21,943 nt of DNA from a virus. Of the stretch, positions 3,071 through 20,369 are shown in pieces. Location of the stretch: positions 1 to 21,943 of IMG/VR virus record IMGVR_UViG_3300049716_000091, one strand, 5' to 3'. The translations under genes were made by a program, and so were the position numbers. Numbering within the stretch: the stretch's first letter is position 1; the number at the start of each line of letters is the position of its first letter. Below the pieces are notes generated by a model. It searched no databases and was not told where the DNA came from. It worked only from the letters and a program-made list of their open reading frames with translations.

Positions 3071-3904
3071 ATGAAAATAGCAAGAGTATTCCCAACAAAA
3101 ACCAGATTGTCACCTATCGACTCTCTTGCCTATTTTGATGTGCCGGGAATGTTTGACGAAGCAGATGAGGTACATGTAAGCACTCTTTTTACATGGGATA
3201 AAGGCCGCGCTGAATATTTAGCGGGTCAATGGCGACACGTCGCGCCGGTTACGTTTGGAGGCCCGGTTTACAATCAACCGGGCGCAACCTTCGTGCCTGG
3301 AAAATACGTCCGTGAAGGTGCGGTAATAACGTCTCGCGGGTGTCCGAATAGGTGTTGGTTTTGCTCAGTATGGAAACGTGAATCCGGCCTTTTAGAGTTG
3401 CCAATCAATGCCGGAACAAACATTCTCGATGATAATTTACTGGCATGTTCGGAGCGGCATATACGCGCAGTTTTTGCTATGCTTAAGGTACAACACGGGC
3501 CAAAGCAGTTTACAGGAGGTCTCGAAGCAAATAGGCTTTTGCCTTGGCATGTAGATTTACTTGCCGACCTGCGGCCCGCTCAGATGTTTTTCGCGCTTGA
3601 TACTCCGGACGACGAAGAACCGCTCCGAACCGCCTCAAAGATACTAAGGCAGGCCGGATTCACTCGGAATGCGATGCGGTGTTATGTTTTAATAGGCTAT
3701 CCGCGAGACACGATTCAACAAGCGGAAACGAGGTTGCGCCTTTGTTTAGATTTAGGTTTTTTTCCTATGGCAATGTTGTGGCGCGACGAAAACGGTAAAG
3801 TGGATATAAATTGGCGAAAGTTTCAACGCGAATGGGCGCGGCCTGCTATAATAGCAAGCAAATGCGCTGCGGGAGCTTTCGGAAGTTTACAAAACATCGG
3901 CTAA
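3071..3904 (+). CDS. Phage-type radical SAM protein
   Basis: 277 residues with the radical-SAM iron-sulfur motif C-x3-C-x2-C in SRGCPNRCWFCSVW (C91, C95, C98), which binds a 4Fe-4S cluster and cleaves S-adenosylmethionine to a radical. Other conserved-looking segments are VTFGGPVYNQPG (~60-71), NILDDNLLAC (~117-126), FTGGLEANRLLPWH and CYVLIGYPRDT. I recognise this arrangement as a compact radical SAM family found in phages and plasmids whose substrate is not established. It has no visible B12 domain or auxiliary cluster motif. A weak AGG-type ribosome site precedes ATG 3071. It sits between nuclease/helicase and primase genes, so nucleic-acid or nucleotide modification is a reasonable inference only. 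Confidence 0.85.
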   Translation: MKIARVFPTKTRLSPIDSLAYFDVPGMFDEADEVHVSTLFTWDKGRAEYLAGQWRHVAPVTFGGPVYNQPGATFVPGKYVREGAVITSRGCPNRCWFCSVWKRESGLLELPINAGTNILDDNLLACSERHIRAVFAMLKVQHGPKQFTGGLEANRLLPWHVDLLADLRPAQMFFALDTPDDEEPLRTASKILRQAGFTRNAMRCYVLIGYPRDTIQQAETRLRLCLDLGFFPMAMLWRDENGKVDINWRKFQREWARPAIIASKCAAGAFGSLQNIG

Positions 3905-3911
3905 CAGCCGC

Positions 3912-3957
3912 GTTACGAAACGGTCAAGGGTAGCAAGTAAGCGTACCGCATCGTAAC
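3912..3957. other. Imperfect inverted repeat after the radical SAM gene
   Basis: GTTACGA (3912-3918) pairs with TCGTAAC (3951-3957), and CGGT (3921-3924) pairs with ACCG (3945-3948), separated by a symmetrical 2x2 mismatch. This gives 11 base pairs around a 20-base loop. It begins 7 bases after the stop codon and has no T-run, so it is not a standard terminator. It ends just before the tandem duplication begins at 3964. Confidence 0.5.
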
Positions 3958-3963
3958 ACGGCA

Positions 3964-4292
3964 AACGTTGGTTAACATTTGCGAATCTTTGGAGGTTAAT
4001 ATGGCGGCGGAAAAAACATTTCAGGAGTGGTGGGCACGATATTCATATCGCTTTGAGCCTGGACGAATTTTAGAAAATTCTGCGCGAACATGTTGGAATG
4101 ACGCCGCCAAGCTTTCGGAAGATTCGAAAACGTCAACCAACACGGCCAGCCCAAAATTGCCCACTTTTGAGGAACTATCTTCAATCATAGGAATTAAAAA
4201 CAGGCTCAAAGATAGTAACCATCAAAAATGCTTTATTGCGGGTGCTCACGCTATGTACACATTAATAGGTGGGCAACTTCGGGCGTAGCCGG
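3964..4292 (+). repeat. Tandem duplication, copy 1 (329 bp)
   Basis: This 329-bp block, from AACGTTGGTTAAC to GTAGCCGG, is repeated by eye without any difference at 4293-4621. It includes the ribosome site and the full 95-aa gene. AACGTT occurs at both copy starts and again at 4622-4627 just after copy 2, so the duplication is bounded by a 6-bp direct repeat. Confidence 0.97.
4001..4288 (+). CDS. Hypothetical 95-aa protein, copy 1
   Basis: 95 residues beginning MAAEKTFQEWWARYSYRF. ATG 4001 is chosen because GGAGGT (3991-3996) lies just upstream; an in-frame start at 3968 would precede that ribosome site. The N-terminal half is rich in Trp and aromatic residues (EWW, ARTCWNDA), the middle is Ser/Thr/Lys-rich, and the C-terminal half is helical with HQKCFIAGAHAMYTLIGG. 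Small phage proteins with a W-x-A-type helix resemble it loosely, but no family or function is recognised. The stop is TAG at 4286-4288. The product is identical to that of the next gene. Confidence 0.75.
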   Translation: MAAEKTFQEWWARYSYRFEPGRILENSARTCWNDAAKLSEDSKTSTNTASPKLPTFEELSSIIGIKNRLKDSNHQKCFIAGAHAMYTLIGGQLRA

Positions 4293-4621
4293 AACGTTGG
4301 TTAACATTTGCGAATCTTTGGAGGTTAATATGGCGGCGGAAAAAACATTTCAGGAGTGGTGGGCACGATATTCATATCGCTTTGAGCCTGGACGAATTTT
4401 AGAAAATTCTGCGCGAACATGTTGGAATGACGCCGCCAAGCTTTCGGAAGATTCGAAAACGTCAACCAACACGGCCAGCCCAAAATTGCCCACTTTTGAG
4501 GAACTATCTTCAATCATAGGAATTAAAAACAGGCTCAAAGATAGTAACCATCAAAAATGCTTTATTGCGGGTGCTCACGCTATGTACACATTAATAGGTG
4601 GGCAACTTCGGGCGTAGCCGG
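4293..4621 (+). repeat. Tandem duplication, copy 2 (329 bp)
   Basis: Second perfect copy of the 3964-4292 block, in direct orientation with no spacer. After 4621 the sequence continues AACGTTTACAC and diverges from the repeat after AACGTT. Confidence 0.97.
4330..4617 (+). CDS. Hypothetical 95-aa protein, copy 2
   Basis: Identical in protein, DNA and ribosome site to the gene at 4001-4288. ATG 4330 follows the duplicated GGAGGT. A longer in-frame extension upstream to 4228 reads through the tail of copy 1 in a different frame and is an artefact of the duplication junction. Two intact, identical genes would double the dose of this product. No divergence has accumulated, so the event is very recent, is maintained by gene conversion, or is an assembly artefact. 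Confidence 0.72.
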   Translation: MAAEKTFQEWWARYSYRFEPGRILENSARTCWNDAAKLSEDSKTSTNTASPKLPTFEELSSIIGIKNRLKDSNHQKCFIAGAHAMYTLIGGQLRA

Positions 4622-4652
4622 AACGTTTACACTATAGGAAACTTAAAAAAAT

Positions 4653-7388
4653 ATGATTGATTTCAACACCATTGCCCAAACAGCGCTTGTAAACGCCCGT
4701 TCGTTTCTCGATCAATGGGTTCCGGGAGGAAAAATTGTCGGAACCGAATACACGGTCAAGAACCCAACGCGCGCGGACGGTTCAGCGGGATCGTTTAAAA
4801 TCAATCTATCGACCGGGTGTTGGTCGGATTTTGCCACGGCGGACCGCGGTGGCGATCTGGTTAGCCTCTATGCATACATTCACGGGATTAAAAACGGGGA
4901 GGCGGCTGTTCAATTGAGCAAAATATTATCATGTGAGCAACCTGTACGGCCGTTAGAACCGCAATCGAATCAACCTAAGCCTCCAGACATATGGACCCTG
5001 CAAAAAATCGTCCCTGAAAATTCTCCGAAATTACCTGTTGAGCGCCGCATAAAAATCGATGGCGTTTGGATTGGTTATAAAATCACGCATTACTGGCCCT
5101 ACAAAAATCAGCTTGGCGTGATTCTTTTCTACGTGGTGCGTTATGAAACTCCAGACGGCAAAGAGACGCCTCAAATGACGCTCTGGAAAAATCAAGATGG
5201 AAAATTAAAATGGCGATTCAAGGGTGTCGAAGGAGCCCGCCCGTTATACAACCTGGATAAAATATCTCATTCTCCCGATGCGCAAATTATTGTTGTAGAG
5301 GGAGAAAAAAAGGCTGAGGCCCTCCAAGCTCTGTTTGATGAGGCCGTCACACCAATAGTAGCGACATGTTGGGTTGGCGGCGCACCTGGAGTTTTAAAGG
5401 CCGATTGGGCCCCTCTTCTCGCGCGAAACTGTATTCTCTGGCCAGATAACGACGATGTCGGCCGAAAGGCCATGGATGATGTTATGGCGCGCGTCGACGC
5501 GACCGAGTTTCTCGTGTTAAAGATCCCCGAGGACAAGCCAAAAAAATGGGACGCAGCCGACGCTATCTTGATTGACGGCTGGAAGTTTCAAGAGATCATA
5601 GCGTTTATTAAAAAAAACCGCATTAAAATTATTCCTGAACCGAAACAATTACCTGCACCAGACGCCCCCACGGAAGAATTGATTCCACTTCCTCCGGCAG
5701 ATATGCCGCCGATCGATACGGTTCCTGATGTAAAAGTTTTTCCGTTTTTGTTTTTGGGGTTTATCGGAGACCATTGTTATTATCTGCCGAACGGAACCCG
5801 GCAGGTTATGGCGATTAAACGATCTCAACATGGTTCTGGGGAATTACTTGCCCTGGCTAAATTAACTTTTTGGGAAAATCATTATCATAGTAAATCGGGT
5901 CCTAATTGGAAACAGGCTGCCGACGATTTATTGCGCGGAACGGAATCCGTTGGAATTTATGATTTCGACAAACAGCGGGGCCGCGGTGCTTGGTTTGACC
6001 ACGGGCGTTCTGTTCTGCATCTCGGAGATAGGTTGGTTGTGGATGGAGTAGAGGCTGGCCTCACCGAAATAAAAACCAGATTCATTTACGAGGCCGCGGT
6101 CCCACTGGAACATACGAAACGGCCGGCGCTGTCAAAACTCGACGCCAATAAGCTGCAACAAATTTCGGACATGCTTTTCTGGGAAAAACCGTTATATTCG
6201 AAATTATTTACTGGGTGGATTGTATGTGCCTGCATTTGCGGGTCTCTGAAATATCGTCCGCATTTGTGGTTGACCTCGAAGCCTGGGGCCGGAAAAACAT
6301 TTATAATCGAATCAATAATGCGTCCGATCCTGGGCGAATTTGCCTTGCCGTTATCGTCCTCTACCACTGAAGCGGGTATTCGGCAAACACTTAATACCGA
6401 CGCTTTGGCTGTGCTCATCGATGAGTTCGAAGGCGAAGATTGGCAGTCTCAACAGCGTATCCAGGCAATCCTAACACTCGCACGACAGGCGTTTTCGGAC
6501 AATGGCGCTCGAATTACTAAGGGCGGCCAGAACCATAAGGCAATTTCTTTTCGTATTCGGTCCTCATTTTTTATGAGTTCGGTTGGGGTAAACCTTTATC
6601 AGCATGCCGATAAAACCAGGGTTTCAGTTATAAGTCTCGATTCTCCTCGCGATGTTCCAGATAAAACAAAGAAACAGCATTGGCTTGAACTTAACAAGCT
6701 CATCACGGACACCATTACTGATAAATGGTGTGAGTCATTTCGTGCGCGCGTGATCAAAATGATACCGACGATACGAAAAAATATTGAGGTTTTTACCGGA
6801 ACCGTATTGGATAAAATAGGCAATCGCCGATCCGGCGACCAGATGGCTCCTCTCCTTGCCGGAGCATATTTGCTCGTGTCTGACGGGGTTATTTCTTCGG
6901 AGGCAGCTCAAAAATGGATTGATGAACAAGATTGGAGTGACCAAAAAACCGTCTCTGAAAACTCGGATGAAAAATCTTGTTTAGAACTCATTTTGGGATC
7001 GTGCATACCAAACGCATTAAAACCGGGGGAAATTTCAATTGCTGAATTGTTGAATAACGTTCAAAATTGGGTTGAAGCTTATGCCGGTGAAAACATAGAA
7101 ACCTCGCCGGAAGTCATGAGTTTGAAGCGTTACGGCATCCGTCTGGATAGAGACGAAGGAATAATTTATATTTCCGACACAAATTCAAAAATTGCGGTCC
7201 TTTTAAAAAACTCACCGTGGAATAAATCATGGGGGCAACTGCTGAAGCGTATCCCTGGCGCCGTCTCGAGTCAAAAACGGTTTCATTATTCACGATCAAT
7301 GGCAACAGGCATTCCGTGGGTTCAGGCGATGGGAGAAGCGGAGGCTGAGACCCCCGCTGTTTCGGAAGATAATCAGATGGGTTTTTAA
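4653..7388 (+). CDS. Primase-helicase (Toprim plus AAA+ ATPase)
   Basis: 911 residues. The N-terminal part (~1-95, CWSDFATADRGGDLVSL) resembles the primase zinc-binding fold but lacks the usual Cys/His ligands. A Toprim-like domain follows, with VEGEKKA (215-221) and WPDNDD (263-268), the acidic residues expected to bind catalytic metal. After a Pro-rich linker (~325-360) comes a DUF927-like region, then an AAA+ helicase core: Walker A SKPGAGKT (542-549) and Walker B LAVLIDEFE (585-593). This is the expected replicative primase and helicase of the phage, making primers and unwinding the fork. Start ATG 4653 has AGGA upstream (~4635). Its TAA overlaps the stop of the convergent HTH gene. Family-level call is firm; the precise subfamily is inferred. 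Confidence 0.88.
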   Translation: MIDFNTIAQTALVNARSFLDQWVPGGKIVGTEYTVKNPTRADGSAGSFKINLSTGCWSDFATADRGGDLVSLYAYIHGIKNGEAAVQLSKILSCEQPVRPLEPQSNQPKPPDIWTLQKIVPENSPKLPVERRIKIDGVWIGYKITHYWPYKNQLGVILFYVVRYETPDGKETPQMTLWKNQDGKLKWRFKGVEGARPLYNLDKISHSPDAQIIVVEGEKKAEALQALFDEAVTPIVATCWVGGAPGVLKADWAPLLARNCILWPDNDDVGRKAMDDVMARVDATEFLVLKIPEDKPKKWDAADAILIDGWKFQEIIAFIKKNRIKIIPEPKQLPAPDAPTEELIPLPPADMPPIDTVPDVKVFPFLFLGFIGDHCYYLPNGTRQVMAIKRSQHGSGELLALAKLTFWENHYHSKSGPNWKQAADDLLRGTESVGIYDFDKQRGRGAWFDHGRSVLHLGDRLVVDGVEAGLTEIKTRFIYEAAVPLEHTKRPALSKLDANKLQQISDMLFWEKPLYSKLFTGWIVCACICGSLKYRPHLWLTSKPGAGKTFIIESIMRPILGEFALPLSSSTTEAGIRQTLNTDALAVLIDEFEGEDWQSQQRIQAILTLARQAFSDNGARITKGGQNHKAISFRIRSSFFMSSVGVNLYQHADKTRVSVISLDSPRDVPDKTKKQHWLELNKLITDTITDKWCESFRARVIKMIPTIRKNIEVFTGTVLDKIGNRRSGDQMAPLLAGAYLLVSDGVISSEAAQKWIDEQDWSDQKTVSENSDEKSCLELILGSCIPNALKPGEISIAELLNNVQNWVEAYAGENIETSPEVMSLKRYGIRLDRDEGIIYISDTNSKIAVLLKNSPWNKSWGQLLKRIPGAVSSQKRFHYSRSMATGIPWVQAMGEAEAETPAVSEDNQMGF

Positions 7389-7894
7389 TCATCGATTCGG
7401 ATAGTAATTTTCTGGCGCATGGTGATTCGATAATTTCCGCTACGGTTTTTCAGGGTGTTTAATCGCGTCAACGCCTCAAATAACGATGCTCCGCTGGTTT
7501 CTTTCAGTTTTTTAGTGGCCCTGCTTAACAGTTGTCTCGATGCCGTGTTCGTAATCCCGAGCATTTTCGCTATTTCCTCATGCGGGAGACCTTCGGCGTA
7601 ATCGGCGATGATGTCGTTTACAGCCTGTTCGCGCATCGAGTCGATGATCGCGGTCCGGATTTTATCTGCGGTGTATCCGGCAAATAAAGCGTCGTGCGGG
7701 ATCTCTGTTAAAAACATGTGGCTCAGGTCCAGAATGAATTTCTTTCGAACGAGCGCGTGTTTTTTCAGTCCGGCCTCGATTTCGTCGAGCGTGAGGCCGT
7801 ATTTTTTAATGAGATCGTACTCAGACTTAAAAACTACTGGTTTTTTGCGCGGAAACGGCTCACCAACGTTGATAAGCTCAGTGAGGGTTATCAT
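7385..7894 (-). CDS. HTH protein resembling sigma-70 region 4
   Basis: 169 residues. The C-terminal half holds a helix-turn-helix of sigma region-4 or LuxR type (~90-132), with key segments YAEGLPHEEIAKMLGI and SRQLLSRATKKLKE. The N-terminal half (~1-85) is charged helix with no recognised -10-binding region 2. A transcription activator or truncated sigma-like factor is therefore more likely than a full sigma factor. It is the last gene of the minus-strand operon and overlaps the upstream gene by 4 bp. By position it is a candidate late-gene activator acting on the 10.6-11.3 kb region; that role is inference. The weak ribosome site is provided by the end of the upstream gene (GAGG). Its stop overlaps the primase stop head-on. 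Confidence 0.65.
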   Translation of the reverse strand: MITLTELINVGEPFPRKKPVVFKSEYDLIKKYGLTLDEIEAGLKKHALVRKKFILDLSHMFLTEIPHDALFAGYTADKIRTAIIDSMREQAVNDIIADYAEGLPHEEIAKMLGITNTASRQLLSRATKKLKETSGASLFEALTRLNTLKNRSGNYRITMRQKITIRIDD

Positions 7895-8382
7895 AGCGCC
7901 GCCTCGATTTCCTCGACCGATATACCTGTTTCTGCGGCGATCTGAATGATCTGCTGCAATTTCGTATAAATCTTCGGGTGATGCTGTTTAAGACAATCCG
8001 GGCAAATGCCATGGGATACAACTATAGGAGACAATGCGATGCGCCATGAGTCATCACCCTGGCGGACCTTCCAGCAACCCATACAAGCAACTCCAAACCC
8101 GCACGACGGGCAAACACCATAGATTGCAATTTTGCCACAAGCCTTGCATTTATGAAATATATCTGACTTAGCTCGAAGCTTGTGCCGGCGCGTGGCGCAC
8201 GAGAGATGGTAGTGACCTTTTCCGATCATTGCCGTCTCGTGTTGCTGCCAGATCGGGCGCAGGCAGGCCATGCAGACGTGGCCGGTGTCGAATAATATGC
8301 CATCAATACGGTCGATGAATTTTTCAAGTGAGGGAGAGATTTTCTTGCTGGCATGCCGTTTGCGAAGTATTTTGCGTATCAC
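7891..8382 (-). CDS. Cys-rich multi-zinc protein (GTG start)
   Basis: 163 residues starting at GTG (8380-8382), with a strong AGAAGG ribosome site five bases upstream that decides the start. Six metal-ligand clusters are visible: CMAC (37-40), HYHLSC (57-62), CKAC (79-82), CPSC (91-94), CMGC (100-103) and CPDC (127-130). Together they could form about three zinc ribbons or a treble-clef pair. The N terminus is very basic (MIRKILRKRHASKK). Such proteins usually bind nucleic acid or other proteins; no family is recognised with confidence. It is translationally coupled to the downstream HTH gene, which suggests a regulatory pair. Confidence 0.75.
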   Translation of the reverse strand: MIRKILRKRHASKKISPSLEKFIDRIDGILFDTGHVCMACLRPIWQQHETAMIGKGHYHLSCATRRHKLRAKSDIFHKCKACGKIAIYGVCPSCGFGVACMGCWKVRQGDDSWRIALSPIVVSHGICPDCLKQHHPKIYTKLQQIIQIAAETGISVEEIEAAL

Positions 8383-8395
8383 TGGAACCTTCTTT

Positions 8396-8403
8396 CTGTA
8401 CAG
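8396..8403. other. 8-bp palindrome CTGTACAG before the GTG start
   Basis: A perfect 8-bp palindrome lies 13 bases upstream of the GTG start codon of the Cys-rich gene, between the ribosome site and the hairpin. It could be an operator half-site pair, but it is too short to identify. Confidence 0.2.
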
Positions 8404-8420
8404 GACGGTTTTAGAGTGTA

Positions 8421-8465
8421 GGCTGATTTCCTGGCTTCAACAGGAAATCAGCCGTTTTTATTTTT
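8421..8465 (+). terminator. Strong rho-independent terminator, plus-strand sense
   Basis: GGCTGATTTCCTG (8421-8433) pairs perfectly with CAGGAAATCAGCC (8441-8453) around a 7-base loop, followed on the plus strand by G, TTTTT, A, TTTTT (8454-8465). On the minus strand the A-rich side comes before the stem, so it is not a terminator for the surrounding minus-strand genes. It could block plus-strand read-through from the primase operon, or end a short antisense RNA. Confidence 0.8.
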
Positions 8466-8475
8466 AGAGGAGCGA

Positions 8476-8883
8476 TTAATTATTTCGTCCTCCCATTTTG
8501 ATTTTAAGGTAAAACATATCGTATCCTCCGTTAACCATTGGAAGCGGGAACCTCTCCATGTTTGGAGCAAGCGGGTGCATGCATAAGTGCGAGTATCCGA
8601 GTTCGAAGCGTCCCGCGCGCGCTCCGGCGCCATAGTCGTAGTCTGCTCTAAACGGATAAAAATCGAATCCTTTGGCCGCCGGCAGACTGTACGACGTGAA
8701 CCCACCCGATATAAAGCCGTGTTTCCAGAATTCCGCTTCGGCTTGATAGTCCACCAGTACCGTGTGGTGAACGTCGACGTACTGCATTTGGTCCATTTGG
8801 CCATAGAGCGCCATGGTATGACCAGGGATGACCCCAAGCTGCAAAACGCCAGACACGAGGATGTTTGCGAGGAGAGAGGTCAT
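8476..8883 (-). CDS. Exported or outer-membrane-like protein
   Basis: 135 residues with a hydrophobic N terminus (MTSLLANILVSGVLQLGVIP), then many alternating aromatic/small residue strands (FISGGFTSYSL, RADYDYGAGARAGRFELGY) and a closing DMFYLKIKMGG. This pattern resembles a small beta-barrel outer-membrane protein rather than a cytoplasmic enzyme. The N terminus lacks the usual basic residues of a signal peptide, so export is not proven. ATG 8881-8883 has a GGAGGG ribosome site and overlaps the Bro-N stop by 4 bp. Overlapping frames on both strands here are shadows. Possible roles include lysis, receptor masking or envelope modification, none shown by sequence. Confidence 0.65.
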   Translation of the reverse strand: MTSLLANILVSGVLQLGVIPGHTMALYGQMDQMQYVDVHHTVLVDYQAEAEFWKHGFISGGFTSYSLPAAKGFDFYPFRADYDYGAGARAGRFELGYSHLCMHPLAPNMERFPLPMVNGGYDMFYLKIKMGGRNN

Positions 8884-9449
8884 AGGTCCCTCCGTATAAG
8901 ATGTAAAATCACGTCTGAATACGTGTGATTAAATCCCATTTTTTGAGATAGGTCGTCGTGCTTGTACTGCAACATCTTAAAGGCATATTCAGAAAGCCTA
9001 AGGTTCACAAAGTCGTCGGCGATGAAAACTTCGGGAATTTTTCTCTTAGATTTAATCATCGGAACCATTGTCGGTTCATCGTTAAAATCGAATAAATTCA
9101 CGACTTTTCCCTCTGGTACAGGGTTTTTGACCGCAAATTTCCCAGTTTTTCTGATCGACGGTAAGACGTCGTGCGTGATCCAACGCCGAAAAGCGTGCGC
9201 TTCAGGCTTGTTTGAGCGGATAATGAGCGTATAAAGGCCGGATTCGGAGATGATATTGCGATCAGGACCACTTTGACCTTCGCTTTTAACGACGGTGTCC
9301 CTTTCATCACTATCGAGTTTTTGAAGTGCCATCGTAATATTTTCCAGCCCTAACACCTCGCAAACGTCGCTTGCAATCCACCATGGTTCATCGTTGATCT
9401 GTAAAACCCTGACGTTTTTTCCCGAATAGACGAAATCAAGTTCGTTCAT
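8880..9449 (-). CDS. Bro-N family antirepressor
   Basis: 189 residues. Residues ~10-105 are a clear Bro-N domain: VRVLQINDEPWWIASDVCEV, LGLENITMAL, IISESGLYTLIIRS and HAFRRWITHDVLPSIRKTGK are all typical. Phage Bro-N proteins often act as antirepressors that interfere with CI-type repressors or other DNA binding. The C-terminal part (~110-189) is not the common KilA-C/ANT domain and includes a possible small helical module (FVNLRLSEYAFKML). Start ATG 9447-9449 overlaps the preceding stop by 4 bp. The divergent repressor at 9795 is the natural target candidate. Confidence 0.88.
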   Translation of the reverse strand: MNELDFVYSGKNVRVLQINDEPWWIASDVCEVLGLENITMALQKLDSDERDTVVKSEGQSGPDRNIISESGLYTLIIRSNKPEAHAFRRWITHDVLPSIRKTGKFAVKNPVPEGKVVNLFDFNDEPTMVPMIKSKRKIPEVFIADDFVNLRLSEYAFKMLQYKHDDLSQKMGFNHTYSDVILHLIRRDL

Positions 9450-9664
9450 GATAAGGCCTCCTCTGGCGTTAATGGTTTTTCTGAAACACTCTTTTCTGAA
9501 ACACTCTTTTCTGAAGTGCGTTTTTCTTTATTCCAATACGGACTTTTACATGCCGGGCAAAGTATTGGCTTCCATTTTTTAAAGTCCTCATGATCTGGAC
9601 ATCGAGAATTCCAACCATGATCGCAGCGCAAGCAGGTATACTGCTTTTCCTTTTCCGCTTCCAT
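9446..9664 (-). CDS. Small zinc-ribbon protein with SEKSV repeats
   Basis: 72 residues, with CLRC (11-14) and a second pair in CPACKSPYWN (~36-45). The CKSPYW ending is typical of a small zinc-ribbon family common on phages and mobile elements. The tail contains tandem SEKSV repeats encoded by a 15-bp DNA repeat (9477-9515). GGGGAGG just upstream of ATG 9664 is a very strong ribosome site. It is the first gene of the minus-strand operon; a regulatory or nucleic-acid-binding role is inferred. Confidence 0.78.
   Translation of the reverse strand: MEAEKEKQYTCLRCDHGWNSRCPDHEDFKKWKPILCPACKSPYWNKEKRTSEKSVSEKSVSEKPLTPEEALS
9477..9515 (-). repeat. 15-bp tandem repeat in the zinc-ribbon gene
   Basis: TTTTCTGAAACACTC on the plus strand occurs at 9477-9491 and 9492-9506, followed by a partial TTTTCTGAA (9507-9515). 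It encodes the SEKSV repeats and keeps frame. Confidence 0.9.
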
Positions 9665-9736
9665 AACGCCTCCCCATTTTGTATGTTATGATGTGATTTT
9701 ATATTCCTTCGGTGTATTAACCTGAGGAACGTTATA

Positions 9737-9766
9737 AGTATATATCAAGATTCTAATAAAAACCAA
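9737..9766 (-). promoter_or_regulatory. Candidate promoter of the antirepressor operon
   Basis: On the minus strand, TTGGTT (9761-9766) and TATACT (9737-9742) are separated by 18 bp, a plausible sigma-70 -35/-10 pair. Transcription would start near 9730, leaving a leader of about 65 bases before the 9664 start. The gap between the divergent genes (9665-9794) is the natural operator region for the repressor. No convincing symmetric operator could be fixed by eye. Confidence 0.5.
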
Positions 9767-9794
9767 GAAAAATATTAATAAATTGATATTTTTT

Positions 9795-10127
9795 ATGAAT
9801 TATAATTTGCCGGAAATTTTAAATAAAGCCGCAAAAACATTGGGCTTTGATCAAGCAGCAATGGCGCGGGCAATGGGATGTACGCAAGGAGGATATTCCC
9901 AAATTATCAATGGGACAACAAAAAATCCAAACATCTTACTATTTGCATATTTAATTAAAAATACTAATATTTCTCCCTCGTTTCTTTTAACCGGAAAAGG
10001 GCCGGTTCTCTGTGATGATTCGGATAAAAATGATCCGGAAGAAATCAACCGACTTCGGCAGGAACTTCACGATTTAAAAATTAAATTAGAAGCGTATCAG
10101 GAAATAATTAGATTGAAACAAAAATAA
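9795..10127 (+). CDS. Cro/CI-type HTH repressor
   Basis: 110 residues from ATG 9795; an upstream in-frame TTG at 9783 is less likely. Residues ~8-66 are an XRE helix-turn-helix domain (FDQAAMARAMGCTQGGYSQI as scanning and recognition helices, then SPSFLLTGKGP). Residues ~82-108 are a charged, leucine-spaced coiled coil likely to mediate dimerisation. There is no LexA-type peptidase domain, so induction would need an antirepressor rather than RecA-stimulated self-cleavage, consistent with the divergent Bro-N gene. No Shine-Dalgarno is visible before the ATG, so translation may be leaderless, as for lambda CI. It probably maintains lysogeny. Confidence 0.82.
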   Translation: MNYNLPEILNKAAKTLGFDQAAMARAMGCTQGGYSQIINGTTKNPNILLFAYLIKNTNISPSFLLTGKGPVLCDDSDKNDPEEINRLRQELHDLKIKLEAYQEIIRLKQK

Positions 10128-10150
10128 TTTTTTTTAACAAAGGAGTATTT

Positions 10151-10594
10151 ATGTTGCGAATTTTAACGCTTTTCTTTTTTATAATAATTATGGCAGGATG
10201 TTCTGTTTATAAAATATCTTCATACGATTTTAATGATAAGATTTCAGAGGAATTTATTACAAAACCAATTTATTCCGGAATTGGTTCAACCATACCTGAT
10301 ATTTTGCTTGATGCTTTGGTTTTAGTCCCAAGCATGTTTTATCCGTTTTCTTTTATTGAAAGCAATGATATGACATTTTATGGCGGGATGGATCTTAAAA
10401 AATACTTAAGAAATACATTAGGACCCGACGGAAGACTTTTTCCACGATTTTTAGTTGTTCAAACCGGAATAACTACGACACCATGGGTAACATTTACAGA
10501 CAGCTCGGGTAAAATTGTTACTATAACAGGAAAAGCGTTTAAAATTGAACGAATAAAATTAGGCGTCCCCATTTTTATGGGAGTTTTTAACTAA
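10151..10594 (+). CDS. Lipoprotein downstream of the repressor
   Basis: 147 residues. The N terminus (MLRILTLFFFIIIMAGCS) is a lipoprotein signal peptide with lipobox M-A-G-C and lipidated Cys17. Ser at the next position favours outer-membrane sorting in enterobacterial-type rules. The mature part has no recognised enzyme motif. A good AAAGGAG ribosome site precedes ATG 10151, only 23 bp after the repressor stop, so it is likely co-expressed in the lysogen. Lipoproteins in this position often serve superinfection exclusion or lysogenic conversion; that role is inferred from context only. The DNA is noticeably AT-rich compared with the structural genes, which may mark a transferred accessory gene. 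Confidence 0.75.
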   Translation: MLRILTLFFFIIIMAGCSVYKISSYDFNDKISEEFITKPIYSGIGSTIPDILLDALVLVPSMFYPFSFIESNDMTFYGGMDLKKYLRNTLGPDGRLFPRFLVVQTGITTTPWVTFTDSSGKIVTITGKAFKIERIKLGVPIFMGVFN

Positions 10595-10860
10595 ACAATA
10601 CATTTTCTTCTTAATTTACCATTTCAACCCTCAAAACTTTTAAGGGTTGACTATCATCTTTAACAGTATTTTCCACAAAAAACCTCCCAATTTTCCCCTC
10701 CAACACAACACCTATTATATAGAGACGATTTTCGACGGTGTCATAAAAAAACACAAAAAACAGTGGCAACCCAAATAACGTTCCAGCGTTTTCTATATAA
10801 ATCAATGACTTAAACGGGTGTCTATTTCACCACTTGAGATACCTATATAAAAGACTCTCT

Positions 10861-10970
10861 CACGCGCGTCCCGCGCATGCGCACCCGCACGCGCCCATAC
10901 GCGCATACGTATATGCATTGTGTATCATGTATTATTATGTATATGTATTTGTATAAATATATATAAATCA
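10861..10970. other. Alternating pyrimidine-purine, Z-DNA-prone tract
   Basis: Runs of strict alternation such as CACGCGCGT, CGCGCATGCGCAC, CGCACGCGC and CATACGCGCATACGTATATG are joined by single CC phase slips. Composition changes from almost pure GC to AT-rich ATATATATA within about 100 bp. It includes the palindromes GCGCATGCGC (10873-10882) and ATACGTAT (10905-10912). Confidence 0.8.
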
Positions 10971-10982
10971 ATACAATAGATG

Positions 10983-11021
10983 GCCTAAAGGCTGGCAACA
11001 AGCTGCCTAAAGTATGGCAAC
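10983..11021 (+). repeat. Two iteron-like 17-bp direct repeats
   Basis: GCCTAAAG-NN-TGGCAAC occurs at 10983-10999 and 11005-11021, 22 bp apart (about two helical turns). A degenerate TGGCTAAC follows at 11023. Same-face spacing suggests binding sites for one protein. Confidence 0.75.
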
Positions 11022-11121
11022 GTGGCTAACAATTTTACATAATAAGAAAAAACGTTACTTAAATCAATGTGTTATGTGGATATAAAATAAATGAGTTTTA
11101 TTGTAAGTAAACTACCAATCC

Positions 11122-11158
11122 AAAACCCTGCATAAACCCGCTAAAACCTGCTAAACCT
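11122..11158 (+). repeat. Short degenerate AAACCYGCTA repeats
   Basis: Three to four adjacent units (AAACCCTGCAT, AAACCCGCTAA, AACCTGCTAA, ACCTC) with a 10-12 bp period lie next to AT-rich DNA. Possible protein-binding array. Confidence 0.45.
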
Positions 11159-11304
11159 CAACAATTCGATTTGTTTAAGCGCTTTTCCATTGCGGATTAG
11201 TTATTCAAGTGGTATGTTTTAACAACACAATTATCTAACAATTGTATTCAATTTTATTATACTAAAGCCTTTTATTTTAAACGATCCATTCATGATTTAA
11301 GATT

Positions 11305-11760
11305 ATGCCGCTAACGAAATCTAATAAAAAACCCGGAAGACCGGTCGCTCGCGCGAAAAAAGTCGCGTCGACTCGCGCACTTGCTTATGCAATTCTCTCA
11401 GGTGTTGGTGGTCTCAGTAAATGCGAAGCCAAAAAGCGCGCTGGATATCATGCTGGTTATTCTCCAGAACGCACACAATCATATTTGCCGATCCAGGAGC
11501 GCATTGAGGCTGCCTGTGATGTGGTCGGCGTAAGCGTTGAGGCTAATGCAGCGACCCTTGGCAGCATTGCATATGATGCAGAGAACGCATGTCCTGAACG
11601 AGTGTCTGCAATACGAGAGATCAACAACATGGCAGGATGGCACGCGCCTGAACGCATTGAAGTGCAGCAACACACAACCAACGTCTCAATCCTGATAGAC
11701 ATGGTACGCAACCAAGGATTAAGTATGGGTGAGTTAATAAGACAGGCGCAATCTGCATGA
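11305..11760 (+). CDS. Putative terminase small subunit
   Basis: 151 residues: a basic N terminus (KSNKKPGRPVARAKKV), a helix-turn-helix-like region (~25-60, LSKCEAKKRAGYHAGYSP), a helical middle and EINNMAGWHAPERIEV (~125-140), a pattern common near the C terminus of phage small terminase subunits. The small subunit binds the packaging site and recruits the large subunit. It lies at the start of the packaging block, two genes upstream of the large subunit. The ribosome site is weak. DNA-binding by an HTH is reasonable; family membership is inferred rather than certain. Confidence 0.62.
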   Translation: MPLTKSNKKPGRPVARAKKVASTRALAYAILSGVGGLSKCEAKKRAGYHAGYSPERTQSYLPIQERIEAACDVVGVSVEANAATLGSIAYDAENACPERVSAIREINNMAGWHAPERIEVQQHTTNVSILIDMVRNQGLSMGELIRQAQSA

Positions 11761-11762
11761 TA

Positions 11763-11803
11763 ATTACAATCTATTACAATGTTGTTAAGTTGAAAGATTG
11801 TAA
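11763..11803. other. ATTACAAT direct and inverted repeats
   Basis: ATTACAAT at 11763-11770 and 11773-11780 (10-bp period) and inverted ATTGTAA at 11797-11803 just before the next ATG. These could form a small stem or an operator. Confidence 0.3.
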
Positions 11804-12169
11804 ATGAATATCAATACAACTGTTACGCGTTTAACTAAATGGATTCTCAATCCATTGCGATTAATTTGGACGGTCATAGCCGCCCCCTCCTTTTTTCGGA
11901 GACCCCCAGGGGGGAGTCCGCCAGACGACTCGGTCCACCAGGTACATCCGCCTCAGCCTTTAAAATTTCCTATAAAATCGACTTTACAAAAGATACAAGA
12001 ACCGGATTACAGATTAATGCTTGTCGAGAACAAGGAGCGTTTAAATCGGATTCGGTATTCGCTTGAGACGTCGATACCGGTTGATGCTAACCATGTTTTA
12101 ATTCGAGGAGTGGATAATTCGGATTTTATTAATCGGTTTTGTGAATATAGAAATTTGTCGAGGAGATAA
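11804..12169 (+). CDS. Hypothetical protein, possible membrane anchor
   Basis: 121 residues. The N terminus has a hydrophobic helix (~10-30, WILNPLRLIWTVIAAPSFF), then a Pro/Gly-rich linker (RRPPGGSPPDDS) and a charged, helical C-terminal part (YRLMLVENKERLNRIRYSLE). No family is recognised. A competing frame at 11839-12066 is a shadow. The linker DNA contains an uninterrupted G/C run that is part of an inverted repeat. Weak GAAAG-type ribosome site; the next gene begins 3 bp after its stop. Confidence 0.55.
   Translation: MNINTTVTRLTKWILNPLRLIWTVIAAPSFFRRPPGGSPPDDSVHQVHPPQPLKFPIKSTLQKIQEPDYRLMLVENKERLNRIRYSLETSIPVDANHVLIRGVDNSDFINRFCEYRNLSRR
11897..11920. other. G/C-run inverted repeat inside the 11804 gene
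   Basis: CGGA (11897-11900) and CCCCC (11903-11907) mirror GGGGGG (11909-11914) and TCCG (11917-11920), centred on one A. It is a compact, slippage-prone palindrome inside the Pro/Gly linker coding sequence. Confidence 0.45.
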
Positions 12170-12172
12170 GCG

Positions 12173-12415
12173 GTGAAGGTTTTTACGACACAGAATGTTC
12201 AGGGATTAAGTTTTGACCGGGTGATGAAGAAGGTTAAACCGGTTGAGGCATTGCAAATAGAGGAGGAATTTCAGATACCGACATATGACGGTGATGTGTT
12301 GCAAGGGGAGTCGGGAGATTATTTGATTTGTGACGAGAAGGATCGGTTGTTTGTGGTTCGACAGGAAGATTTTAAAAAAGGCTATCGTTTTTATCGTGAG
12401 GAAATAGACGCGTGA
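12173..12415 (+). CDS. PGDYG-like small protein
   Basis: 80 residues from GTG 12173, chosen because AGGAG (12161-12165) lies upstream and the frame begins right after the previous stop. The C-terminal half, SGDYLICDEKDRLFVVRQ followed by EDFKKGYRF, matches the pattern of PGDYG-type small phage proteins (a short beta fold). No catalytic residues are evident and the function of the family is unclear. GTGA overlap (12412-12415) couples it to the large terminase. Confidence 0.65.
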   Translation: MKVFTTQNVQGLSFDRVMKKVKPVEALQIEEEFQIPTYDGDVLQGESGDYLICDEKDRLFVVRQEDFKKGYRFYREEIDA

Positions 12416-14187
12416 AACCGATCGCTAAAATCGACGTTAAATCGCCGTTGGAAGGCACAACGCTTCTTGAAGCGGTTCGGGAGATGGTAAGACTATACCC
12501 GACGCTTGGACACGTGCCTAATACGGCTCAACGTCGCATTATGGCGCCGTGGGAGAAGGGGCCGTATCCGTTTATGGTGGTATCGTCGTGCGGAAACGGA
12601 ACAGGAAAGACGAACGTTGTTCCTGTGGATTTGGTTGGGTGTCTGTGTGGACCTGAGTTTTTGAATGACTGTTGGAACGCAGGACCAGACGGAAAGTCGA
12701 TAGGAATGACGCATTATCGGTATTATCACGATTGCCGGGAGTTGCGGGAAAAGGGAGAGTTTCAGTATCGACTGCTTTGTGGTCCGGAGGACATGAAAGA
12801 GGGCGGGTCGCTTTACGTTGAGATCAAAAAATATATTCCGACTGCAAATTTTAAAGGAAAGACGTCGACGGGATCGTATAAACAGATAGAGATTCCATTA
12901 CCTTCGAATCCTTCGGTAAAAAATTACGTTGATATAAAAACGTTTGATCAGGAAGTAACGACGCACGCCGGGGCGAATCTGCATCGAATTGGGATCAATG
13001 AGCCTCCGCCTTATCCGGTGTTTGCGGAAACAATATCGAGGATACGGTCGCAAAAAGGACAAGTGCAGTGTACGATTCTGATGAACGCGACGATTTTGGA
13101 TGTGGCAACGTGGATTTTTGATTTACAGGACGACGAGTTTTTTAAAGGAAAGATTGTTTTTGTTCAAGGGTCTATTTGGGAAAACTGCGTTGGGGAGGAA
13201 ATTACTCAGGACATTGCGGACCAGTTAGAGGAAAAGCTTAACGTTGTACTGGAAAAAGATACCGCCGGCCACTATCTCACGTATGGACATCTGACCAGGT
13301 CGTCGATTGAAAACCAGATACATTTTTTTGAGCGGACGGACCCAAATCAGATCGAGGCGCGTATTTGGGGAGCGAATACCCAGACGTTTGGAGCGGAATT
13401 TAAGACGTTTAATATCAATATTCACGTATGTCCTTCCCGAGTTATTCCTCGAAATGTTCCAGTGTTTCAGGTGGTTGACCCGCACCCTGTGAAGCCGGAC
13501 CTTGCGGGATATTTCTTTGTTGATCACCTTGGACGCAAACACTGGTTTGAGGAATGGCCGCATCTTCCTTGGGAAAAATTGAGTTCGAGGAATAAGACTA
13601 TTGCGGAAATATGCGCGGAGTGGACGGCGCTTGAATCGCGTCTCGGAATTTCCGACCAGGTCGTTACGCGGATCGGCGACCCGAACAGGTTTATGACCGC
13701 GGACTCGCGCGATAATCTCGCGCTATGGGCTCTCTATGTACCGCATGGGTTTTCGTTTAATTGTTTCGTTCGGGATAATTTGGAGTTTGGACATCAGCAA
13801 ATTCATTCGGCGCTGTATTTCGATAAGCGAGTGGCAAAGACCGACCCATCGGACATCCTTGCTCAACCAGGAATGGACTTCACGTCAAACTGCGAGAACC
13901 TGATTAATTCGTGCAAGTTTTATGGACGCAAGGCGCGTAAGGATGTTACGACCGCGGTCAATGAGTCCATCGATAAAAAATATAAGGACGGCATGGACAT
14001 CATCAGGTATGGAACGGTATTCACTTCAGGAAAAACGTTTGATGAATTATGCGGATTGAAGTCTATCGAAGGGGACGATTATTCCCGGATTCGAAAAAGC
14101 AGGGAAGATTACGACGGACCGTATGAGATTCCAAAGGAAAGATTAAAGGGGCGCCGTTTCGTTTCGTTTGTTGGTGCTGGAGCATAA
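12412..14187 (+). CDS. terL: Terminase large subunit
   Basis: 591 residues, GTG start overlapping the previous stop. ATPase domain: Walker A SCGNGTGKT (59-67), Walker B-like HRIGINEPP (191-199) and a coupling segment TILMNATILD (~221-230). In Walker B the usual Asp-Glu pair reads Asn-Glu. The C-terminal nuclease region begins near VFQVVDPHPVKPD, with further acidic sites such as RIGDPNRF. The enzyme powers DNA translocation into the prohead and cuts concatemers at the portal. Length and order (small subunit, large subunit, portal) are typical. The call is firm; the packaging mode (headful or cos) cannot be decided here. Confidence 0.9.
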   Translation: MKPIAKIDVKSPLEGTTLLEAVREMVRLYPTLGHVPNTAQRRIMAPWEKGPYPFMVVSSCGNGTGKTNVVPVDLVGCLCGPEFLNDCWNAGPDGKSIGMTHYRYYHDCRELREKGEFQYRLLCGPEDMKEGGSLYVEIKKYIPTANFKGKTSTGSYKQIEIPLPSNPSVKNYVDIKTFDQEVTTHAGANLHRIGINEPPPYPVFAETISRIRSQKGQVQCTILMNATILDVATWIFDLQDDEFFKGKIVFVQGSIWENCVGEEITQDIADQLEEKLNVVLEKDTAGHYLTYGHLTRSSIENQIHFFERTDPNQIEARIWGANTQTFGAEFKTFNINIHVCPSRVIPRNVPVFQVVDPHPVKPDLAGYFFVDHLGRKHWFEEWPHLPWEKLSSRNKTIAEICAEWTALESRLGISDQVVTRIGDPNRFMTADSRDNLALWALYVPHGFSFNCFVRDNLEFGHQQIHSALYFDKRVAKTDPSDILAQPGMDFTSNCENLINSCKFYGRKARKDVTTAVNESIDKKYKDGMDIIRYGTVFTSGKTFDELCGLKSIEGDDYSRIRKSREDYDGPYEIPKERLKGRRFVSFVGAGA

Positions 14188-14188
14188 G

Positions 14189-16456
14189 ATGGCCGAGTCA
14201 ATAACAGGAAAATTTTCTCCTTACGAAATCAGTGAGGACGACATCACCATTGATGGCCGCGAGTGGGACGACGATTTAATGCGCCTTCTTTGGACTCGCC
14301 ACATGTTGATTTCGGATAGGATGTTTTCGTATTGGAAGCCTTATTACGATAGGGGAAAGACCTGTTTCAACTATGAAAAAGGGAACATCTTTACCTCGAA
14401 ACAACGAAAGAAATATGCCAAGGAAGATAAGTTGTGCGTTGAACCGCGTCTCGTGGAACAGCGCATTTACTCATTGATAGGACAGATACTTCGTGGGCGA
14501 CGGTCCGGATCAATCACGACCGAAGGCGGAAGTCTTGACAATCCAAATGAAAGCGCGATGGCCTGCGAAATTGCGTCGATTGTCATGAAGGATATGGAGA
14601 AAAAATTCAAGGAGCGGCAACTTGAAAAGGATTTACTTCACAACGCGCTCATAAGTTGTTTCCCGAATTGGGCATGGATCGAGAAGGAGTCACCGTCAAA
14701 GGGAGAAGGGGTCCTGAAAGCAACTCTCCTACCCTGGGACTCCGTCGCGGTGGCTCCTTTTAATTTTCTTTACTCTCAAGACATCACCTGCGTTTCTTAT
14801 CGGTCGTTCCTCAAGGAGGCCGAACTCATCGATTATTATCCGAAAATGGAAGAACAGATCAAAGCCCATCGTCAAAACTTGAAGGACAAAGATTACGAAC
14901 TTGAATCTTCCATTTCAGAGTGGAATACACAGCTTTCTTCAGAGAATCGGTCAACACTTTTTTCCATTATGGTTAGCGGGCGGTCATCGATTGTAATGCC
15001 TGATTCTTTTTACGAAGTAATCAAGCGGGTTTTTCAAATTAAACGTAAAGAAAAAATTGCGATCAACCTGGAAAATCCAAACGACTTTCATATTCGGCCG
15101 CCGGATTGGGACGTTGAACGATGGAACGCTTTTATTCAGGAAAAGAAAGACAAAGACGGAATTGAATATTCGGAAGACGAGCGCCTCGTGACTGCCCTGT
15201 GGGAAACGACTGGAACATCTTCCGGGCTCATGGTTCAAAACCAACACCATTGGTATCAAGAAAACGGTCGCATGCCTGGCGCGGCATATTGGCCCGCTAT
15301 GATCGACGCGGACATCTGCGGGCCCGGTGAAAAAATGTTGAGCAATGTTCTGAAAGCGGCTTGCGCCGAAACGGAATTCCTTGACGAAGTGATGAAGGGA
15401 TCAGGAAGTATTTGGCTTTTACGAAACGGGTATATTGCGAACATCGACGACTTTCAAACAGAAGTATCAAAAAGCAATGGTACTGTTTTTATAAAAGGAG
15501 ATTTTCCCGGGCCTCTTGACAATGTGGCTAAGAATATTCAACGTAAACCAAACTCTGCAACCCTTGAGTATGCCCAAAAAGTCAAGGCGGATATTGAAGA
15601 AGAAACCCGGTTGAACCAGAGTATGCAAGGGGCTTCCCAAGGTGATCAATCCGGCGTGGCAAAATCAATGGAAATTGCTCAAGGTATGGTTGCCCAAACC
15701 GACTATGTTGAAAACTTCAATAATTGGTGGGAAGAATTCCAGGACTTAAAATGTTCACTCATTCCTTACGGATATGACCAGTTTGACATCATCGAAATCG
15801 TTGACGAAAAAACAAGTCAGAAAAAAAGCGTCGAAATCAATGCTCCTGTTTCCGACATTACCGGGGAAATAATCGGAGTGGCAAACGATTTGACCGCTCA
15901 TAATTTTAAATTCAAACTTCAGCCGGTTGATGATTCACCGACGGCAAAGGCAGAAGAACAGCGGCAAGCAATTGTCTTCTTAAATGCGGTCCCTGGCCCG
16001 CTTTCCGCAATCGATCCGAGCGGCGAGACCTTGGCATATTTCATGATGTCGCTGCCGAATAGAATTCTGCAGGACGCCGGGAAAAAACTATTGTCGGCCG
16101 CCCAAGGTCGAGCGCAAGCTCAACAACAGCAGGCACAAACCAAGCAGATGCTTGACGCTAATGAGCGTTTACAGAAACTTAAAAACGAAGCCGACAGAAT
16201 CAGGGCAAGCAAAATCATGTTCTCGGTTACCGGCGAACAGCTTGCGCAGTTTCCGATGTTGGCTCAGTTACTAAATGAAATCGGGTATTTCACTCCGCCT
16301 CCCCAGCAATTACCACCGGAATCACAAGGCGCGCTCCCTGCGTCTCAAGATCCCGGAGCTGAGGTTCCAGCGGCTCAGGAATTACAAAACCAACAACCAC
16401 CTCAACCACAACCACCTCAACCACAAAATCAACCACAACCATCCAGTCAAGGGTAG
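14189..16456 (+). CDS. Portal protein (P22-like size)
   Basis: 755 residues from ATG 14189, one base after the terminase stop; an in-frame TTG at 14168 would overlap the terminase end and is less likely. The N-terminal region (MLISDRMFSYWKPYYDRGKT, VEPRLVEQRIYSLIGQILRG) and overall size match large portals of P22-like phages, which form the dodecameric ring for packaging and tail attachment. The C terminus is Gln/Pro-rich (~725-755, repeated QPQPP), encoded by a CAACCACCT-type low-complexity run, and is probably flexible. Position between terminase and scaffold supports the call. Confidence 0.82.
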   Translation: MAESITGKFSPYEISEDDITIDGREWDDDLMRLLWTRHMLISDRMFSYWKPYYDRGKTCFNYEKGNIFTSKQRKKYAKEDKLCVEPRLVEQRIYSLIGQILRGRRSGSITTEGGSLDNPNESAMACEIASIVMKDMEKKFKERQLEKDLLHNALISCFPNWAWIEKESPSKGEGVLKATLLPWDSVAVAPFNFLYSQDITCVSYRSFLKEAELIDYYPKMEEQIKAHRQNLKDKDYELESSISEWNTQLSSENRSTLFSIMVSGRSSIVMPDSFYEVIKRVFQIKRKEKIAINLENPNDFHIRPPDWDVERWNAFIQEKKDKDGIEYSEDERLVTALWETTGTSSGLMVQNQHHWYQENGRMPGAAYWPAMIDADICGPGEKMLSNVLKAACAETEFLDEVMKGSGSIWLLRNGYIANIDDFQTEVSKSNGTVFIKGDFPGPLDNVAKNIQRKPNSATLEYAQKVKADIEEETRLNQSMQGASQGDQSGVAKSMEIAQGMVAQTDYVENFNNWWEEFQDLKCSLIPYGYDQFDIIEIVDEKTSQKKSVEINAPVSDITGEIIGVANDLTAHNFKFKLQPVDDSPTAKAEEQRQAIVFLNAVPGPLSAIDPSGETLAYFMMSLPNRILQDAGKKLLSAAQGRAQAQQQQAQTKQMLDANERLQKLKNEADRIRASKIMFSVTGEQLAQFPMLAQLLNEIGYFTPPPQQLPPESQGALPASQDPGAEVPAAQELQNQQPPQPQPPQPQNQPQPSSQG

Positions 16457-16468
16457 GAGGAGAGTTTT

Positions 16469-17707
16469 ATGGGCACGGAAAAAGAATCGGTAGTCGATAC
16501 CGGGTTTACAAGTTCGAAAGGCGAAGCGGAATACGCCACCGCCATGTTGGCCGACGATCCGGAATATCAGAAACAGGTAAAAGAAGAGGCGGCCGCGGCG
16601 GCATCGAAACCGGGCGAGAAACCTATCGAGGAAAAAGAAGAACCTCCAAAAGAGGATGAACCGGCAAACGAAGAACCTGAGACCGTTGTTGAAAAAAACG
16701 ACGACATCGATGGGGACGGCGAAGAACCCGCGAAAGAAGAAGTCGAATACGAGGATAACGTTATTCCTGGCCTTACCGGAAAACAATTCAGCGCTCTTCC
16801 GGACGACGTTCGGGAAGTCGTTGCCAAAGCAGCAACCCAAGCCGAAGAACTTAAAACCAAAAGTTCGGAAACACAATCACGCCTTGAAAAACTTTTAAAT
16901 GATCCCATTGTAAAACATCGTGACGAAATGATAAAAACCGGGAAGTCGGACCTCACGTATGAGCTTCCCACGATTACCGATCAGCAATTCGCGGAAATAC
17001 TTAAATGCGTGGACGAAGATACTCCGGAGGCCCGCAAAAAAGCCCGCGATATTTTAGGCGACATTGTAAAACAGTCGTCGGAATTATCCGAAAGCAATAC
17101 GCGCATTTTAGAAAATTCAAAATTCAATACCCAAAAAATGTTAAATTCCGCCGGGAAAAACCTATTGAAGCTTGGGGAATTAAACGCGGAATTGAAATGT
17201 GATATAACCGACCCGGATAAGTTGGTAGAAACTCCATTTGAAAAGCTTGGGAACCTTGGCAAGGTACTTCAAAAGCTTTCCGAAATGCAAGCCAATAAAA
17301 CCATTACCAGTGTCGCCAAATACATCAGTGAGCGAAAGCCGGAAGCGCTCTATGCCGAAATGGCCGTGGAATTAGGGTTGCCTTTGGTGCTTAATGCCGA
17401 CAAAAAAATCCGCGACATCGTAAAGAAATCCAACCAGGCCCTGGCTGACAGGTACAGGAAAAACAAGGATGGCAACGGCGGTCAAATGCCGTCCGGGAAA
17501 GAAGTCGATTCCAAAAAAATTAAAAGCGGACAGGTTGTTGATGGAATTGACATCGTAAAGCTGGCAACCAATGACGACTATCATGAAAAAATGCTCTATA
17601 AAAATTCCGGCGATTTGAAATGGGTGGATAAAATTTCGAGATTGAGAGAAAGAGGGGAGCGGTTTCTAATTGAGAACCCCGACCAATCCTCCTCTTCTGG
17701 AAAATAA
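16469..17707 (+). CDS. Putative scaffolding protein
   Basis: 412 residues. The first ~95 are highly acidic and Glu/Pro/Ala-rich (EEKEEPPKEDEPANEEPE), and the middle and C-terminal parts are long charged helices with coiled-coil character (EELKTKSSETQSRLEKLL). There are few aromatic residues and no enzyme motif. Internal scaffolds of phage heads have this acidic, elongated helical make-up, and the gene lies exactly between portal and coat. A strong GGAGGAG ribosome site precedes ATG 16469. Whether it also carries a protease is not indicated. Confidence 0.65.
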   Translation: MGTEKESVVDTGFTSSKGEAEYATAMLADDPEYQKQVKEEAAAAASKPGEKPIEEKEEPPKEDEPANEEPETVVEKNDDIDGDGEEPAKEEVEYEDNVIPGLTGKQFSALPDDVREVVAKAATQAEELKTKSSETQSRLEKLLNDPIVKHRDEMIKTGKSDLTYELPTITDQQFAEILKCVDEDTPEARKKARDILGDIVKQSSELSESNTRILENSKFNTQKMLNSAGKNLLKLGELNAELKCDITDPDKLVETPFEKLGNLGKVLQKLSEMQANKTITSVAKYISERKPEALYAEMAVELGLPLVLNADKKIRDIVKKSNQALADRYRKNKDGNGGQMPSGKEVDSKKIKSGQVVDGIDIVKLATNDDYHEKMLYKNSGDLKWVDKISRLRERGERFLIENPDQSSSSGK

Positions 17708-17732
17708 TAAATCTTAACAGGAGGCTTGAGGT

Positions 17733-19016: not shown

Positions 19017-19034
19017 GCGTTCGATGGTTTAACC

Positions 19035-19076
19035 GGGGCGAAGAAATTCTTCGCCCCATTCTTCGATAAATTTTTT
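19035..19076 (+). terminator. Hairpin after the major capsid gene
   Basis: GGGGCGAAG (19035-19043) pairs with CTTCGCCCC (19049-19057) around a 5-base AT loop. A T6 run (19071-19076) follows 13 bases later, so this is an attenuator, 3' stabiliser or weak terminator rather than a canonical terminator. The ribosome site of the next gene (AAGGAG) begins right after it. Confidence 0.6.
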
Positions 19077-19089
19077 AAGGAGTTTAATA

Positions 19090-19821
19090 ATGAGTATACC
19101 CACGGTTGCACAAGACAAGCTCGGTATAACCAACCTCGTTCCTGAGGGTGCTACCGCGCTGGGGGCCCAGGCAAAAGTTGAAGGGCTTCAAAATATTTTT
19201 GCAGGAGTCCAGGCCAACTGGTCGGGAGCCGGTGACGGAATTCTCGCCCAAAACGACATATGGTTTATCGGTGGCCGCGTCGAGCCGACCTCCTCCGATT
19301 ATCCCAATGCTCCGATAGGATCGCTTTTCTTTTGCTGGCATACGGACAGCGCGAAAACGAATCCGTACGATTCGAAACTTTTCATCAAAACCCAGTACGG
19401 CTGGGAAGCGACCGATACAATGCTTTACGCTTCGGTGTCGTTAACGCTTACCCAATTGCTGGCATTGTACACGACTCCGATTCAAATCGTAGCGGCGCCC
19501 GGAGCGACAAAGGCGATTGTACCGATCCGGGCAGCGTATCAGTACACGTATGGGTCCGCGGCGTTTGGCTTGGGTAGTGTTGTGGACCTTGAAATCCGAT
19601 ATACCGGCACGAGTGGTGCGGCTCTTATCAAGATGCCGACCACGGGGGTATTAGACCAGACAGCCAACGCAACGGCGTGGGGAGCGCCACAGGCAAACGC
19701 GATCATGGCGGCAAACGCCATTGCGTGCGTGCATATCACAGGTGCGAACCCCACTACTGGAACCGGATGTTCCGCCAAGGTTGGGTTTTGGTATAAAGTG
19801 ATGGACGTAGCCGCGTTCTAA
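19090..19821 (+). CDS. Hypothetical virion protein (decoration candidate)
   Basis: 243 residues, with a strong AAGGAG ribosome site. It is Gly/Ala/Thr-rich and beta-like (TQLLALYTTPIQIVAAPGAT, YQYTYGSAAFGLGSVVDLEI) and ends in KVGFWYKVMDVAAF. Low charge and small-residue richness fit a virion structural protein; the place directly after the coat gene suggests a head-decoration or head-completion protein. It is flanked by a hairpin on each side. No family is recognised. Confidence 0.7.
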   Translation: MSIPTVAQDKLGITNLVPEGATALGAQAKVEGLQNIFAGVQANWSGAGDGILAQNDIWFIGGRVEPTSSDYPNAPIGSLFFCWHTDSAKTNPYDSKLFIKTQYGWEATDTMLYASVSLTLTQLLALYTTPIQIVAAPGATKAIVPIRAAYQYTYGSAAFGLGSVVDLEIRYTGTSGAALIKMPTTGVLDQTANATAWGAPQANAIMAANAIACVHITGANPTTGTGCSAKVGFWYKVMDVAAF

Positions 19822-19838
19822 CGGTTGCAGTTAATGGC

Positions 19839-19881: not shown

Positions 19882-19898
19882 AAAAAACGGAGAGTGCT

Positions 19899-20366: not shown

Positions 20367-20369
20367 TCT

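Follow-up and report, generated by a model that had tools for sequence, protein, structure and literature searches.

Gene content around the duplicated locus

The window analyzed here, that is, the whole 21,943-base stretch of one IMG/VR virus record, is a fragment of an uncultured tailed phage. Its gene order runs from a DEAD/ResIII-type helicase, a VRR-NUC nuclease and a radical-SAM protein to a duplicated gene and a primase/helicase, followed by a sigma-70 region 4 protein and a BRO-N protein (both on the minus strand), an HTH-like ORF (plus strand) and, further along, a P22-like portal protein and more structural genes. The features at and around the duplicated gene are as follows.

3071..3904, plus strand: radical SAM domain protein, 277 aa, upstream neighbor (PHROG 9298, E=1.6e-17; Radical_SAM, E=1.1e-5, short of the curated cutoff)
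3898..3983, unstranded: non-coding spacer with three consecutive hairpins (3898-3910, about 3911-3958, and 3961-3983), identified by fold z-scores
3964..3969, unstranded: AACGTT, left breakpoint (exact comparison)
3964..4292, plus strand: repeat unit 1, 329 bp (exact comparison, Tandem Repeats Finder)
4001..4288, plus strand: orphan 95-aa ORF, copy 1, with GGAGG five bases ahead of its ATG (ORF list, codon score)
4293..4298, unstranded: AACGTT, junction between units (exact comparison)
4293..4621, plus strand: repeat unit 2, 329 bp, identical to unit 1 (exact comparison, Tandem Repeats Finder)
4330..4617, plus strand: orphan 95-aa ORF, copy 2, with its own GGAGG (ORF list)
4622..4627, unstranded: AACGTT, right breakpoint (exact comparison)
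4653..7388, plus strand: DNA primase/helicase, 911 aa, downstream neighbor (PHROG 35358, E=7.5e-104)

The primase reaches identities of up to about 37% with the primases of cultured phages. IMG/VR phages contain at least 107 relatives of the radical-SAM gene (80 kept), and the gene that follows it varies among the loci examined, but the phage record collection yielded a single match; the radical-SAM gene is a widespread and poorly known phage accessory gene.

A perfect tandem duplication with a 6-bp repeat at every edge

In an exact comparison, 3964-4298 matches 4293-4627 without interruption over 335 bases (offset 329), with the identity stopping at the left edge, where position 3963 is A and position 4292 is G. 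Tandem Repeats Finder recovered the same array, with a period of 329, 2.0 copies, a 100% match and a score of 1328, and an exact repeat of this size is too long to have arisen by chance. A preliminary description of this DNA had proposed a perfect 329-bp tandem duplication with AACGTT at the start of both copies and again after the second, and both parts of that proposal are borne out, the hexamer being seen at 3964, 4293 and 4622. The junction between the units reads GTAGCCGGAACGTTGGTTAAC and the right edge GCCGGAACGTTTACAC. The copies thus lie head to tail, with a short direct repeat at the outer edges and one at the junction, as is characteristic of a microhomology-mediated tandem duplication.

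With 14 sites where 10.4 +/- 2.9 are expected, the hexamer is not unusually frequent in the window. A 6-bp repeat at this spacing is no rarity in random sequence, however, and 87 such pairs exist within the 2 kb around the duplicated locus. Among random breakpoint pairs drawn from the window sequence, 0.23% have junction homology of 6 bp or more, suggesting that homology at the breakpoints probably contributed to the duplication. Two resemblances of 33 and 20 bp (79-85%) between the end of the radical-SAM gene and the repeat differ in order and were judged to be due to chance.

The left breakpoint falls within a structured spacer. Folded as RNA, the minus strand of 3898-3983 has a z-score of -4.6, with none of 200 shuffled sequences folding equally well; the corresponding values are -3.8 for DNA and -3.3 for the plus strand as RNA. 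The stem of the third hairpin, GCAAACGTTGGTTAACATTTGC (about 3961-3983), contains the left breakpoint, a location that could have favored polymerase stalling. The spacer matched no Rfam family and no tRNA, and an RNA gene at this position was therefore rejected.

The duplicated gene encodes an orphan protein

Each 329-bp unit contains TTTGGAGGTTAATATG and a single TAG-closed ORF of 95 codons, in agreement with the earlier proposal that a complete gene with its ribosome site had been copied. Because 329 is not a multiple of 3, the copies form separate genes rather than a fusion. When ten larger window genes are used to train a codon score, the ORF obtains 0.08 in its own frame and negative values in the other five, a result similar to that of the neighboring radical-SAM gene (0.075). 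This makes it likely that the ORF, despite being an orphan, is a genuine gene, and both copies are predicted to be translated.

The encoded protein, which starts MAAEKTFQEWWARYSYRF, has no relatives in IMG/VR, phages, plasmids or GTDB genomes, no family match in PHROGs, Pfam, NCBIfam or PADLOC, and no relative among PDB sequences (best E=0.76). The fetched loci contain 6,880 small ORFs, and searches of these by regular expression and phmmer likewise returned none. The sole weak profile match, to DUF7083 (E=0.025), was discarded, as its 15.1 bits fall below the cutoff of 27. An AlphaFold2 model computed without an alignment consists of four helices with a pLDDT of 60, which is too poor for a fold search.

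Structural variation within the lineage

A scan with the portal protein retrieved a record, L003, that matches window positions 7337-21943 at 99.7-99.8% identity in its main aligned blocks. This record starts inside the primase gene, near its 3' end, and nowhere contains the duplicated locus, so it cannot settle the copy number of the 329-bp unit. A 76-bp intergenic unit is present once in the window (10613-10688), flanked by AATTTACC and AATTTTCC, and in 3.1 copies in L003 (2901-3136), with AATTT-type direct repeats at every edge. Window positions 9764-10139 (376 bp) are missing from L003, which retains a clean junction in their place. The missing segment holds the HTH-like ORF (9783-10127, 114 aa), and its presence in one record and absence from the other may represent the gain or loss of a repressor in this lineage.

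The 76-bp array resembles the 329-bp duplication in the short direct repeats at its unit edges, and differs from it in being intergenic and in comprising 3.1 copies that are about 98% alike, differing at a few bases. It bears the same signature at a separate site: a single-copy unit ends in short direct repeats, one of which stands at each junction once the unit has expanded. Near-identical members of one lineage are hence set apart by an expansion at short repeats and by an indel the size of a gene, and these differences provide the strongest support for regarding the 329-bp duplication as genuine and ordinary in kind.

Other repeats were observed in the same set of sequences. Window positions 20787-21581 comprise 120-bp repeats in 360-bp superunits about 92% alike, lying within an apparent tail protein with recurring YIWVSTDSGNTWTQKATS units, and a further record (L004) carries 2.7 copies related to these repeats. 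L003 has a further array of 141-bp repeats at 15147-15891, and the left end of the window contig (12-345) consists of 63-bp tandem repeats encoding a repeated LRSLTSAAGLKLP protein motif.

Origin and age of the duplication

We consider a recent tandem duplication, by slippage or recombination at the 6-bp direct repeat, to be the likely origin of the array. The single-copy ancestor would have carried AACGTT ahead of the leader of the orphan gene (3964) and a second time directly behind the stop codon. As the genome was replicated or a break repaired, a strand would have paired with the wrong AACGTT, through slippage or microhomology-mediated recombination, and this mispairing would have doubled the 329 bp between the repeats, with a single AACGTT left where the units meet. 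Homology of 335 bp would then permit easy expansion, or loss to one copy, by homologous recombination, so that copy number probably varies within the phage population. The preliminary description had put forward the same origin, which is the best available explanation and gains support from the second expansion in L003. Taken as a whole, its interpretation is supported in part: for dosage selection and gene conversion, which it also raised, the analysis gave evidence in neither direction.

The repeat geometry, the short homology and a like event elsewhere in the lineage are observed; the molecular pathway and the age of the duplication are inferred. By the rule of three, the absence of differences over 329 bp limits the divergence of the copies to about 0.9%, and fewer than one difference would be expected between them at the divergence separating the window from L003, so that identity by itself indicates recency and not selection. 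The earlier suggestion that the duplication is extremely recent fits this bound, as well as a lineage that varies by such events at 0.2-0.3% divergence. We found no single-copy relative with which to polarize the duplication, as no relative covers the locus.

Alternative explanations

The array could instead reflect an error of assembly, in which one real copy, or three or more, were written as two. IMG/VR records are mostly short-read metagenome assemblies, and an exact repeat of 335 bp exceeds the k-mers usually employed in them. The copy number here rests on one assembly, since no other record found covers the locus, and the 21-mer spanning the junction was found in no other IMG/VR record. 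Exact tandem repeats of at least 100 bp are also rare: across 103 sequences totaling 1.18 Mb (the window plus the viral loci fetched by then), we identified one other, with a period of 72 bp (in L094). Part of this rarity is attributable to assemblers, which collapse or break at exact tandem repeats. Against an artifact, a de Bruijn assembler can link two units end to start only when the junction is present in the reads, which makes it probable that there are some tandem molecules; moreover, L003 is a separate assembly showing a like expansion, and the differences among its copies argue that it is no copying artifact. We regard an error in the existence or number of the copies as unlikely, while a copy number of exactly two is not secure.

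Adaptive amplification, in which the duplicate is kept because more of the small protein is beneficial, for instance against a host defense, appears distinctly unlikely on present evidence. The duplicated segment is suggestive in this regard, as it holds little beyond a single small orphan gene and the ribosome site that goes with it. Under selection by ToxIN, phage T4 amplifies the gene for the 85-aa TifA in the same manner (PMC9391042), and phage T6 amplifies anti-defense loci with SegB (PMC13096335). On the other side, the 95-aa protein matches no family in the four collections searched, identical copies can yield no dN/dS signal, and the L003 expansion sits in an intergenic stretch with no evident gene, indicating that such events also arise without an obvious dosage benefit. 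These explanations are not mutually exclusive, for selection could act on a duplication generated by slippage or recombination. The more specific proposal, that the orphan is a new counter-defense or otherwise dosage-limited gene caught amplifying under host selection in a wild population, is improbable.

An old duplication whose copies are kept identical by gene conversion is highly improbable. Zero differences are also compatible with ongoing conversion, and phage repeats of 335 bp should be homogenized by homologous recombination. Such an origin requires a long-lived pair, whereas arrays of this kind tend to collapse, and no relative with two copies was found in IMG/VR, phages, plasmids or GTDB genomes.

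The insertion, twice, of an integron-like or otherwise mobile gene cassette with the hairpin region as its recombination site has a close to negligible probability: AACGTT does occur at every unit edge, and the strong upstream hairpin group has outer arms resembling attC R boxes (GGCTAAC...GTTGGTT), but each arm deviates from RYYYAAC/GTTRRRY at one position, none of the 11 distinct proteins scanned from the window, and nothing in the ORF list of this partial contig, was recognized as an integrase, and the cassette is largely refuted by the missing hairpin at the 3' unit ends, where no comparable attC-like fold is found (z of -0.45, -1.65 and +0.07). Nor does the spacer hairpin recur behind the radical-SAM genes of other phages, and its central 15-mer occurs in IMG/VR at about chance level, in matches without a pairing arm; the integron cassette was consequently rejected.

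Comparison with known phage amplifications

In T4, tandem amplifications have their boundaries at unique short homologies, typically of 6-10 bp, one of which is kept between neighboring repeats (PMC9391042). The closest counterpart of the present locus is the T4 dmd-tifA amplification described in the same work, which likewise consists of tandem repeats with short-homology boundaries, one left between units, and involves a small gene of unknown family (85 aa for TifA, 95 aa here). It differs in its coverage, which rises about tenfold, in that the selection, ToxIN, is known, and in having been shown by PCR and sequencing depth, whereas the phage studied here has two copies in one metagenome contig and an orphan protein unrelated to TifA. 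The T4 gene 16-18 amplifications (Wu, Wu and Black 1991, cited in PMC9391042) are similarly reiterated tandem duplications at short homology, but involve a larger segment with packaging genes and a known selection. The SegB-driven segmental amplification of phage T6 (PMC13096335) is comparable in that a phage locus is amplified by segment, but it depends on the homing endonuclease SegB, and none was recognized in the present partial contig.

Implications

The 329-bp duplication adds a new case to a known class of events, one that is ordinary in phages unless the extra copy is selected. Taken with the 76-bp expansion and the presence or absence of the 376-bp segment, it suggests that this lineage changes in such ways within a few SNPs per kb. 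Short-homology duplication is known mainly from selection experiments with T4, and, if real and segregating, the duplication described here would offer a natural snapshot of this process acting on a gene in an uncultured phage, and it singles out a small orphan gene as a candidate for a dosage effect.
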